Shown: positions 53,275-56,437 of the stretch, piece after piece
How positions within the stretch are numbered: the first letter of the stretch is position 1
Layout of the letters: each line of letters begins with the position of its first letter
Source of the DNA: Ensifer sesbaniae
GTDB lineage: Bacteria > Pseudomonadota > Alphaproteobacteria > Rhizobiales > Rhizobiaceae
DNA length: 64,000 nucleotides
NCBI RefSeq assembly: GCF_013283665.1
Contig: NZ_JABEKU010000002.1
Span: 804,863 to 868,862 of the forward strand
Direction of reading: 5' to 3'
The notes under the pieces: model-generated
What the model was told of the DNA's origin: nothing
What the model saw: the letters and a program-made list of their open reading frames with translations, nothing else
Databases searched by the model: none
Translations under genes and position numbers: made by a program

Positions 53275-54012
53275 TCACACCCCGCGCCTGTTGCCCCAGA
53301 GCAGGACATGCAACTGCGGCAGAACGCGGGCCTCGAACCAGCGATCCTCCGTTACCTTGCCGACGAGCCAGAGCATGCGGTCGATGATACCGTCGATATC
53401 GACGGTGGCGTTGTCGTCATCAGGCGGTGGCGGCGTGTGGTTGCCGGGCTGCAGGTAGAGCGGCAGATGCGGATAACGAGCCGCGACGTCACGCGCATAG
53501 GCATAGTCGCGCTCGTCGAACACGACGATTTTCAGCGCCACCTCAGGCTTTCCCGCCGCCATCAAAAGACAGTCGTCGAAGTCGTGCCAGTTCGTTTCCA
53601 TGCCGCTCGACGGCGGCTTCGGGCTCAACACCAGGACGTCGAGATCGGCGAACCAGTCCTTCGCGATACTGCCCTGCGTCTCCAGGGCAAACCGGTAACC
53701 ATCCTTTCGCCCACGCGCGATCAGGGGGCCGAGCGGCTGGATCGCCGGATTGCCGCCGGACAGCGAGACCGTGAGCGGCTTGCCGCCCGATAGCCGGATC
53801 ACTTCGCTCCAGATCTGCTCCACCGTCATCGGCAGCCATTGGTCGCGGTATTCGCTGTCGACGGCATGCAGCGTATCGCACCAGCTACAGCGATAATCGC
53901 AGCCGCCCGTGCGCACGAACACGGTCGGCAGGCCGATCAGTATGCCCTCGCCCTGGATCGTCGGGCCGAAGATCTCGCTGACGCGGATGCGCGTTTCGCC
54001 GGGTCCGGTCAT
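53275..54012 (-). CDS. queE: 7-carboxy-7-deazaguanine synthase QueE
   Basis: 245 residues from the ATG at 54012. A radical SAM enzyme with the CX3CX2C variant cluster motif [10 protein letters not shown] (Cys38, Cys42, Cys45), normal for QueE, and the N-terminal [20 protein letters not shown] that forms its substrate region. It converts 6-carboxytetrahydropterin to 7-carboxy-7-deazaguanine on the way to queuosine. It overlaps queD by 4 bases and is the last of queC-queD-queE. The frame beyond 54012 is not used. Confidence 0.94.
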
Positions 54013-54365
54013 GGCCGGTATTCCGCCCAGGTCTTCGGCGTCTCGCTGACGCGCACCGCCGACGTTTCGGGCAGCCTCGCCTTGCACCAGTCGTAGAAAT
54101 GCTTCGCCAGAAATTCGGCCGTCACCTGGTCGTGGCCGAGAACATCGTTGAGGTGACGATGGTCGAAGCTCTCATCGATATAACGCTTCAGGGGTGCCAG
54201 CTCGTGATAGTCGCGGACAAAACCGTGGACATTCAATTCCTCGGCAGCGAGTTCGACTTCGACGACGTAGTTGTGGCCATGCAGCCGGGCGCATTGGTGG
54301 TCAGCCGGCAGGCTCTTCAGCTGATGCGACGCGGAGAAATGGAACTCCTTGGTGATCCGAAACAT
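54009..54365 (-). CDS. queD: 6-carboxytetrahydropterin synthase QueD
   Basis: 118 residues. The zinc ligands are His14 (FSASHQL), His29 and His31 (LHGHNY), and the catalytic Cys25 lies in [11 protein letters not shown]. The motif [23 protein letters not shown] is the second active-site segment. It makes 6-carboxytetrahydropterin from dihydroneopterin triphosphate. The ATG at 54365 overlaps the queC stop (TGATG) with GAGGTGAAG as ribosome site; a GTG 3 bases upstream is possible. Confidence 0.94.
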
Positions 54366-55075
54366 CACTTCACCTCCTCTGCCGCATATGCCGAGGTCGC
54401 AGCCACCCAGAAATCCGGATCCTCATAGTCGGTCGGATCCGCAACGCCGGCGAGATGGAAGGCCTCGCGCCGCTCGACACAGGTGCCACAGCGACCGCAG
54501 TGGCGGGCGCCGCCCTTGTAGCAGGACCAGGTCTCTTCAAAGGGTGTCGCATGGCTTGCGCCGTCGGCGACGATATCCGCCTTTGAGATCGTCACGTAGG
54601 GCGCATAGAGCGCGACCTTGGCGTAACCATCGAGCGCGTGGTTCTGCATCGCCTGGAACGCGTCGATGAAGCCGGGTCGGCAGTCGGGGTAGATGAAATG
54701 GTCGCCGCCATGCACGGCGACGGCCACCGCATCCGCCTTCTGTGCCGCCGCCAGTCCGAAGGCAATGGCGAGCATGATGGCGTTGCGGTTCGGAACAACC
54801 GTCGCCTTCATCGTTTCCTCGGCATAGTGGCCGTCGGGCACGTCGACGTCATCCGTCAGTGCCGATCCGGTGAGATGCGTACCTATCGTGCGGATGTCGA
54901 TGATCTGATGCGGAACGCCGAGGCGCCGGGCGCAAGCCGCGGCAAAGTCCAGTTCCTTGCGGTGTCGTTGTCCGTAGTCGAACGAGAGCAAGCCAACAAG
55001 CTCCCGCTCGGCTGCGACCTTGTGGGCAAGCGATACCGAGTCCAATCCGCCGGAGCAGATGACGATGGTCTTCAT
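54365..55075 (-). CDS. queC: 7-cyano-7-deazaguanine synthase QueC
   Basis: 236 residues. The ATP pyrophosphatase P-loop CSGGLDSVSLAHK (residues 7-19) and the C-terminal zinc site CYKGGARHCGRCGTC, with four cysteines, identify QueC, which converts carboxydeazaguanine to preQ0. First gene of the operon. Its ribosome site AAGGA lies inside the 3' tail of a class I preQ1 riboswitch, so preQ1 should repress translation of the whole operon. No queF (preQ0 reductase) is seen in the window. Confidence 0.95.
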   Translation of the reverse strand: MKTIVICSGGLDSVSLAHKVAAERELVGLLSFDYGQRHRKELDFAAACARRLGVPHQIIDIRTIGTHLTGSALTDDVDVPDGHYAEETMKATVVPNRNAIMLAIAFGLAAAQKADAVAVAVHGGDHFIYPDCRPGFIDAFQAMQNHALDGYAKVALYAPYVTISKADIVADGASHATPFEETWSCYKGGARHCGRCGTCVERREAFHLAGVADPTDYEDPDFWVAATSAYAAEEVK

Positions 55076-55083
55076 GATAGGTG

Positions 55084-55114
55084 TCCTTGTTTTGACCGGG
55101 TAGGCTGCGACCGG
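55084..55114 (-). promoter_or_regulatory. preQ1 class I riboswitch in the queC leader
   Basis: Read on the minus strand, CCGG (55114-55111) pairs with CCGG (55099-55096) around the loop UCGCAGCCUAC, and the A-rich tail UCAAAACAAGGA follows. Loop start UCGCAG and tail AAAACAAGG match the Thermoanaerobacter tengcongensis preQ1-I aptamer (as I recall it) almost base for base. The tail contains the AAGGA ribosome site 8 bases before the queC ATG, so ligand-induced pseudoknot formation would hide it. The downstream queC-queD-queE genes make the precursor of this ligand, supporting feedback control. Confidence 0.78.
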
Positions 55115-55166
55115 ATTACAGGGTGCCTTCTAGGACAAAGCAGGGGCGATGGGAAGCGTTATGTTT

Positions 55167-55201
<35 letters not shown>

Positions 55202-55372
55202 CGTGGTGGGTTTATATCGACCGCCTTCGGGAGCGGCCTCTGGCGTAATCTGGGCGCGCTTCGGCTGCGAATGACGGGAGAACGTGCGCCCGCTGGTTGC
55301 AATCAGCAAATAGCAACTCCAAACACAACCACAAGGCACGCACCAGAGAGAATATGCCGTTGTTTTTATACC

Positions 55373-55416
55373 TTTTGTCCTGCAAAATCAAAAAAATCAG
55401 AATTTGCAGGACAAAA
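55373..55416. repeat. Inverted repeat abutting the nucleotidyltransferase gene start
   Basis: TTTTGTCCTGCAAA (55373-55386) and its exact complement TTTGCAGGACAAAA (55403-55416) flank a 16-base A-rich centre. The right arm ends 4 bases before the ATG, and no ribosome site lies between. It could be an operator, a leader hairpin, or the scar of a mobile element end. Confidence 0.7.
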
Positions 55417-55420
55417 CTTT

Positions 55421-56437
55421 ATGGTTGAAATCGTAACCCCATACACTGATGAACAGCGGCGCGTTCTCATCAACATCGAACAACACTATGACGTGTGGCT
55501 GGGTGTGGAACGCGCCCTGCTAACGCTCCCTTATGGGATGAAATGGGCAGAACGCTCGGGCAAACAATACCTTTACGAATTGCTCGACAGAACCGGGAAC
55601 GCGAAAAGTCTGGGAGCCAGGTCTGAGGAGACCGAAGCTGCCTACGAAAGGTTCCTCCGCACTAAGGATGACCTAGCAGGACGACTGCTAGAAAGCCGCA
55701 AGAGATTAGCCGAAACCTGCGCCCTCTATCGCTCCCTCCTATTACCACAGATACCTTCGGAGGCGGCTAAAATCCTCAGGGAGGCTGACAAGCGTCGAAT
55801 GCTGGGGGAAAAGCTGTTGGTTGTGGGTACAAACGCTATGCCGGCTTACAACATCGAAGCCGGCGGGCGCATAAATGACGCCCCCGATGAGACCGATGAC
55901 TTCGACATGACGTGGTCGGCGCTTATAAAGGACGATACCGGCGGCGGCGTCATGTCCATGCTGAAGGCAGCCGACAGCACTTATACAGTCAACACAGAGA
56001 GAACCTTCCAGGCCAGAAACGCAAAGGCGTTTGAGTTCGAGTTGTTAGCTGCGCCATCTACGGTTTCCAATATGCTCCAAAACGACAGGCCCAGTCCGCT
56101 TCCCCTACCAGAGCAGGAATGGCTGTTGTTGGGTCGGCATGTGAACCGCGTCGTTGTAGGGCGAGATGGGACGCCGGCTCGGCTCGTCGTTCCCGATCCT
56201 CGGTACTTTGCGCTTCAAAAGCTTTGGATGGCCGATCAGGACAAGCGCAACTTTCTGAAACGACCCAAGGATGTCAAGCAAGGCTCCGCAGTGCTCGCCG
56301 CGATCGCAGCCTCGATGCCTCATTTTCCCCTGGATGAGCGGTTCGCGCAGTCACTGCCTGCAGAACTCAGTCCGTACTTCGACCAATGGCGGTCTACGTA
56401 CAATGAAACTCCCGCAAAATCTCCCTCTTGGTGGTAA
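55421..56437 (+). CDS. Orphan nucleotidyltransferase-fold protein (GSU2403/NTP_transf_8-like)
   Basis: 338 residues from the ATG at 55421; the open frame continues upstream antisense to queC and is rejected. Residues about 1-115 are helical (EQHYDVWLGVERALLTLPYGMKW). About 126-165 reads EKLLVVGTNAMPAYNIEAGGRINDAPDETDDFDMTW, a nucleotidyltransferase core with G-T-x-A and the acidic D-D-x-D strand. This fits the GSU2403 family, distantly related to AbiEii/MNT toxins and aminoglycoside-type transferases. Codon use is visibly more AT-rich than its neighbours. No partner antitoxin gene is visible. Function unknown; defence or toxin roles are speculation. Confidence 0.65.
   Translation: MVEIVTPYTDEQRRVLINIEQHYDVWLGVERALLTLPYGMKWAERSGKQYLYELLDRTGNAKSLGARSEETEAAYERFLRTKDDLAGRLLESRKRLAETCALYRSLLLPQIPSEAAKILREADKRRMLGEKLLVVGTNAMPAYNIEAGGRINDAPDETDDFDMTWSALIKDDTGGGVMSMLKAADSTYTVNTERTFQARNAKAFEFELLAAPSTVSNMLQNDRPSPLPLPEQEWLLLGRHVNRVVVGRDGTPARLVVPDPRYFALQKLWMADQDKRNFLKRPKDVKQGSAVLAAIAASMPHFPLDERFAQSLPAELSPYFDQWRSTYNETPAKSPSWW

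Follow-up and report, generated by a model that had tools for sequence, protein, structure and literature searches.

The leader of a queC-queD-queE operon in the 64-kb window (the whole stretch of DNA analysed here) harbours what is, with high probability, a class I preQ1 riboswitch of type II controlling translation of queCDE, as judged by its sequence, the conservation of its structure and its gene context. The element, CCGGUCGCAGCCUACCCGGUCAAAACAAGGA, is the minus-strand reading of 55114-55084 (CCGGTCGCAGCCTACCCGGTCAAAACAAGGA as DNA); it is followed by CACCTATC (CACCUAUC in RNA form) and, 8 nt downstream, by the ATG at 55075-55073 that starts queC (open reading frame (ORF) 55075-54365). A first-pass annotation, made from the letters alone, had called a preQ1-I riboswitch before queC at this place and described a short stem, a UCGCAG loop and a class I tail with the ribosome site inside it. 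Sequence and coordinates agree with that description, and all of these parts are present, the ribosome site being AAGGA at 55084-55088. The identity as a preQ1-I element is further supported by a conserved stem P1 with compensatory changes and by loop and tail blocks identical to those of the Thermoanaerobacter tengcongensis (Tte) aptamer, and the class can be refined to type II by the AC before the 3' strand of P1. The parts of the element and the genes that follow it are listed in Table 1.

Table 1. Features of the putative riboswitch and its operon in the window.
Feature	Position	Strand	Basis
Putative preQ1-I type II aptamer, including built-in ribosome-binding site	55084..55114	-	Sequence, RF00522 register, conservation, P1 covariation, Tte match
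P1 5' strand CCGG	55111..55114	-	Partner 55096-55099; compensatory changes at 2/4 pairs
Loop UCGCAGCCUA, predicted 5' side of pseudoknot helix P2	55101..55110	-	UCGCAG same as Tte aptamer; P2 itself by homology
C15, counterpart of Tte ligand-pairing C	55100	-	Invariant in 14/14 rows of alignment A4; role from PMC11625349 (excerpt)
P1 3' strand CCGG	55096..55099	-	Pairing in A4
A-rich L3 and 3' tail UCAAAACAAGG, predicted 3' side of P2	55085..55095	-	AAAACAAGG invariant in 14/14 rows, also in Tte
Shine-Dalgarno AAGGA, 8 nt 5' of start codon	55084..55088	-	Read from sequence
queC	54365..55075	-	NCBIfam TIGR00364; Pfam QueC
queD, start overlapping queC stop	54009..54368	-	NCBIfam TIGR03367; Pfam PTPS
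queE, longest ORF	53275..54087	-	NCBIfam TIGR03365 from residue 33; Pfam Radical_SAM

Type II of class I is defined by AC before the 3' strand of P1 (PMC11625349, excerpt). A14, directly 5' of C15, supplies this signature, and both bases are invariant in all 14 rows of our alignment of varied leaders (A4, described below). Type I, which needs UC at this place, was considered and rejected on the AC found in every row. P1 forms a hairpin stem whose two top G-C pairs occur in 14/14 rows, UC and then GCAG follow its 5' strand, and the A-rich L3 runs into a tail that contains the Shine-Dalgarno sequence, with queC downstream.

The operon downstream is queC-queD-queE as first annotated: NCBIfam recognizes all three genes, and Pfam concurs on QueC and QueD, assigning QueE to Radical_SAM. 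The start of queE is probably an internal ATG about 25 codons into the longest ORF, overlapping the end of queD. That the operon makes the precursor of the ligand holds in so far as queCDE make preQ0, the direct product of QueC; preQ1 requires QueF in addition, one copy of which is encoded in the same genome on another contig. One Tgt is also encoded, so this genome can both make and use preQ1. In its DNA the window resembles Sinorhizobium, and among plasmids the queCDE region is best matched (96%) by one of 2.64 Mb from S. chiapasense. The neighbours of queCDE in the window are an alpha/beta hydrolase gene and a nucleotidyltransferase-like gene; on S. meliloti pSymB, exo genes lie near queC and the immediate neighbours are unlike those of the window.

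Two other sequence features were observed upstream of the operon. A pure CT/GA dinucleotide tract lies at 55170-55198, upstream of the queC leader, in the place of which S. chiapasense has an AAC-type repeat; neither is found in the other same-genus leaders read. An inverted repeat (TTTTGTCCTGCA...TGCAGGACAAAA) at 55372-55417 directly precedes a divergent gene (55421-56437) with a Pfam NTP_transf_8 domain.

The Rfam covariance model RF00522, which had been proposed as the check on the assignment, gave a divided answer. Searched against a 45-base stretch, it is the sole match and lies in the right register, at a weak 12.8 bits that fall far below the cut-off of 39; searched against a 701-base stretch around the element, it is not listed at E values up to 10. 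This failure says little about the window, because a Tte-type aptamer from T. thermocopriae (locus L101, 215-265) itself reaches only 24.4 bits, also under the cut-off. A scan of 15 loci at the gathering threshold (10 alphaproteobacterial, with both L101 and L001, the copy of the window element, in the set) gave no PreQ1 match, and none of 41 genomes, the window's own among them, had an RF00522 match above the cut-off. Sub-threshold matches occur in 16/41 genomes against 10/14 control genomes, one of the controls exceeding the cut-off, and are mostly noise given their frequency in the controls; one such place (G047:C13) coincides with a core-pattern match. The window element stays below the gathering cut-off, but type II is not defined by that score; the cut-off leaves out even the structurally solved Tte kind and looks too strict for type II. 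Plain folding, with tools that do not model pseudoknots, is likewise unremarkable (z-score of +0.87 for the 31-mer, with 157/200 shuffles folding at least as well), which is not unexpected for a stem of only 4 bp.

Fifteen of 16 same-genus leaders entered an alignment (the sixteenth, L017, also has an intact element), in which a single position, T or C, varies across the block that runs from ATCCGG to AAGG, with conservation falling at both edges. The pSymB replicons of S. meliloti 2011 and ml56 carry an identical 31-mer before queC (exsB). A QueC search (E value up to 0.001) matched 34 of 61 genomes, consisting of the window's own and relatives, from which 30 loci were retrieved. Among the 25 closest (L001-L025), 21 have a canonical element right 5' of the start codon and one (L022) has an element with an insertion; it is absent before queC in L020, L024 and L025, and the five distant loci (L026-L030) have no element in the 130 nt upstream.

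At the level of the order, we used the pattern GGTCGCAGN{1,6}ACCCN{2,25}AAAACAAGG, which has one match in the 64-kb window; by our own model (R1), the element is single-copy in its genome. The exact pattern occurs in 27/297 genomes of the order, whereas a reversed-pattern control occurs in 0/297, which together with the association with que genes rejects a chance origin. Twenty-two of the 27 matches lie directly before queC (21 with QueC by phmmer, and L048 through a tblastn match at that place, L154), four before a small ORF and queD, and one upstream of queF. In the four (L053-L056, all from one genus), the element is followed by a short ORF beginning MKMTNICI and then by queD, the small ORF ending at the queD start with queE next in the three printed (L053, L055 and L056). 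The queC of these genomes sits elsewhere, and the short ORF may be a queC remnant or a coupling leader peptide. In the single case (L066), 63 nt separate the element from a downstream queF ORF, for which a TTG start is presumed and behind which lies a gene for a Vut_1-family transporter; here the Shine-Dalgarno sequence of the element does not adjoin the queF start codon. These exceptions also point to the queuosine pathway, and the genes under the element are, as in type II, queuosine synthesis or transport genes.

Of the 297 genomes of the order, 34 have a window-type QueC (E value up to 1e-40). In 22 of these the exact pattern precedes queC, and in four it precedes queD; two others have a form with a hairpin in L3 (G273 and G307), five have a variant core (genus g76) and one (G164, L155) has a window-type queC without the element. 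Altogether, 29/34 carry the element or a recognizable variant directly before queC, and the exact pattern is present anywhere in 26/34 compared to one (G165) of the other 263 genomes. A long-gap version of the pattern matched 2/297 genomes, both before queC, but proves little by itself as its reversed control also gave one match. Among 398 genomes of the phylum, all 12 pattern matches fall within the class. R1 gave 14 matches in 289 genomes of the class (E value up to 0.1): the strong ones are the window's own and three others (L069-L071), these three before queC, and a weaker one (L072) also precedes queC; in the other nine (L073-L081), the looser core pattern is found only in L073, there without the tail. 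By sequence and gene context, the same putative switch is thus present before matching genes in many other Alphaproteobacteria. The element was also seen in three IMG/VR viral contigs, before queT (L123, by Pfam) or before queC-like ORFs (L125 and L127, by sequence), and these contigs are perhaps proviruses or host DNA wrongly assigned.

The stem reads CCGG/CCGG in 16/17 rows of an alignment (A2), and a palindrome CCGG-N11-CCGG of this kind could also be a DNA operator read by a repressor. Because most P1 stems in the order have this sequence, varied stems were sought in named genomes with a pattern that requires a non-G base after ACCC. This returned 41 stretches, of which seven lie before queC (L089, L090, L094, L106, L118, L121 and L122) and one before queF (L096). 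Seven more (L085, L095, L097, L107, L109, L110 and L119) were rejected as chance-like on account of a poor P1 and the lack of a que-like ORF; three (L082, L091 and L115) have no usable ORF, and in the remainder, from Firmicutes, the downstream ORFs are QueT-like or Vut-like. Eight of the 41 were examined with Pfam (L089, L090, L096, L101, L111, L117, L118 and L122). The stem is CUGG/CCAG in queC leaders of uncultured Bartonella (L090, L094 and L106) and of a gammaproteobacterial bin (L089), CGGG/CCCG in Rhizobium sp. Leaf306 (L122), UGGG/CCCA in an alphaproteobacterium (L118) and AUGG/CCAU in a Paracoccaceae bin (L096), where the element stands directly before queF. Stems such as CUGG/CCAG, CGGG/CCCG and AUGG/CCAU change sequence yet keep pairing, conservation extends to a loop without symmetry and to a tail that merges with the ribosome site, and in 21 queC loci this tail lies 6-11 nt from the start codon, all of which makes an operator very improbable.

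For a quantitative view of the RNA stem, we chose 14 rows with distinct sequences and equal loop lengths (A4), leaving out extra-T loops (L045 type), L3-hairpin forms, the f51 g76 variant, Firmicutes, the viral contig and near-duplicates. Pair counts were taken from A4 because an alignment that included Firmicutes (A3) was misaligned by one base, on our reading owing to their differing loop lengths. All 56/56 P1 cells are paired and 8/56 are changed on both sides, a proportion that is not a frequency since the choice of rows favours varied stems; the double changes are confined to the two outer of the four pairs, and the other two never vary. The covariation score is 0.445, compared to 0.112 for shuffled alignments (0/500 reach 0.445) and at most 0.091 when slid. 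The strength of the covariation lies in the cells and the score, as the number of doubly changed pairs (two) is matched by 57/500 shuffles and that of further pair types (four) by 136/500. The bases of P2 are invariant across the 14 rows and hence offer no covariation test. The first-pass annotation had named a missing model match combined with a missing stem conservation as the outcome that would speak against it; the stem is conserved, with compensatory changes.

On the preferred reading, a translational preQ1-I switch, the 4-bp P1 and the A-rich tail would enclose one ligand in an H-type pseudoknot, with preQ1 pairing with C15. Helix P2 would form between the UCGCAG loop and the tail CAAGG and so cover the first bases of AAGGA, which is tail and ribosome site at once. 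Translation of queC would then drop, and probably that of queD and queE too, as their starts overlap the end of the preceding gene. By analogy, the switch very probably turns the preQ0-synthesis genes down when product suffices. P2, the ligand and repression are modelled on the homologous Tte riboswitch, which buries two Shine-Dalgarno bases (PMC11625349, excerpt); observed directly here are the sequence, its place, its conservation, the P1 covariation and the association with que genes.

Two other modes of control were weighed. The type II riboswitch of Bacillus subtilis acts by premature transcription termination (PMC11625349, excerpt), and the window element might do so as well; however, we found no promoter-like or terminator-like site in 55050-55450 and the tail is only 8 nt from the start codon, so termination is highly unlikely. 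From the position of AAGGA in the tail, 8 nt from the AUG, and the lack of a terminator-like site in that region, we infer ligand-dependent hiding of the Shine-Dalgarno sequence. Alternatively, an upstream anti-Shine-Dalgarno hairpin, in which UGUCCU pairs with AGGACA, could be the main control and the likeness to an aptamer secondary. The window sequence allows this pairing (third fold), and L002 and L004 retain UGUCCU. Beyond these the upstream half is not conserved (GCCCU in L003, GGCCU in L006 and L008, another sequence in L014) whereas the aptamer core is, which leaves such a hairpin extremely improbable as the main control.

Returning to the translational switch, its ligand is most likely preQ1, perhaps preQ0, and preQ0 may be bound as well. 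That preQ0, the QueC product, is the physiological ligand of the same aptamer rather than preQ1 would fit a queCDE pathway that ends at preQ0, with QueF encoded on another contig, and Tte does bind preQ0 with a KD of 35 nM, 17-fold more weakly than preQ1 (PMC10622847, excerpt). As the Tte pocket favours preQ1, and as queF follows the element immediately in L096 and after 63 nt in L066, positions in which preQ0 would oddly repress its own consumer, we consider this unlikely.

The least familiar members are the relatives with a hairpin in L3 or with an altered loop and tail. The queC leaders of L144, L147 and L022 have an extra predicted hairpin in L3, between P1 and AAAACAAGG, of 7 pairs (-9.1 kcal/mol), 12 pairs (-13.1) and 11 pairs (-12.4), respectively, with sequences that look unrelated. 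Five genomes of one genus (f51 g76; L149-L153) have CCGGUCGAGAACCACCCGGA(U/G)AAAACAGG before queC, with a variant core GGTCGAGAACCACCC and the tail AAAACAGG. Their loop is altered and, by eye, of equal length (UCGAGAACCAC where others have UCGCAGCCUAC), and their tail CAGG is one base shorter than CAAGG, so that P2 is perhaps re-registered. These variants would bear on what a minimal preQ1 pseudoknot tolerates. Tentatively, and at somewhat less than even chance, the Alphaproteobacteria may hold a large branch of preQ1-I type II that has gone unnoticed and that remodels one of the smallest riboswitch folds known, through L3 hairpins, altered loops and tails and the placing before a tiny ORF, queD and queE, and that sets the dose of queC/exsB in Sinorhizobium.

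Queuosine precursor synthesis in rhizobia thereby gains a concrete candidate regulator. The exsBCD genes have been argued to be likely orthologues of queCDE, and symbiosis is impaired in S. meliloti mutants of queC, queF and tgt, with queA little or not affected (PMC3568095, excerpt); the exsB mutant, as cited in the same excerpt, overproduces succinoglycan. If the branch is real, a Sinorhizobium switch would dose queC/exsB, the loss of which increases succinoglycan in S. meliloti and impairs its symbiosis, and by extension a link to symbiosis may exist in the organism of the window.

The class itself is known, and what is new here is a further candidate preQ1-I type II switch that the current Rfam threshold misses. 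Among the literature matches listed, judged by title and start of abstract, we found no report of a rhizobial or alphaproteobacterial queC riboswitch. A 2014 study by McCown is reportedly the main survey of preQ1 classes and may include some of these sequences. A review has already placed type II in Pseudomonadota (PMC11625349, excerpt), and a 2013 survey of RNA regulons, with 15 Rhizobiales genomes included, described preQ1 switches as largely confined to Firmicutes, besides one or two proteobacterial lineages (PMC3766115, excerpt).

The closest known system is the crystallised preQ1-I type II riboswitch of Tte (PDB 3Q50; aptamer sequence printed in PMC10639078, excerpt), with which the window element shares the blocks GGUCGCAG, ACCC and CAAAACAAGG, the AC before the 3' strand of P1, the Shine-Dalgarno sequence in the tail and the translational layout. 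C6, G10 and C26 are the counterparts of C7, G11 and C30, which form the ceiling triple of Tte (PMC11625349, excerpt); they are invariant in A4 as bases, and their contact is predicted by homology. The two differ in that P1 has five pairs in Tte and four in the window, that the window has one extra nucleotide between G10 and C15, and that the stretch from P1 to C26 (G19-C26) has 6 nt in the window and 9 in Tte. A Tte-type aptamer of T. thermocopriae (L101), whose core is identical to the printed Tte core (excerpt), precedes a Pfam-confirmed queT, whereas that of the window precedes queCDE. The B. subtilis riboswitch is of the same class and type and also governs an operon that contains queCDE (queCDEF; PMC9495176, excerpt), but, in the excerpts, has a UUCUAG loop, a CUAAGG tail and a Watson-Crick P2, and acts by termination. 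The gammaproteobacterial preQ1-I type III is, like the window element, a small proteobacterial aptamer with an AAGG tail and AC before the 3' strand of P1; its loop is pyrimidine-rich with a UU motif and it regulates yhhQ (PMC11625349 and PMC10622847, excerpts), in contrast to the UCGCAG loop and queC of the window.
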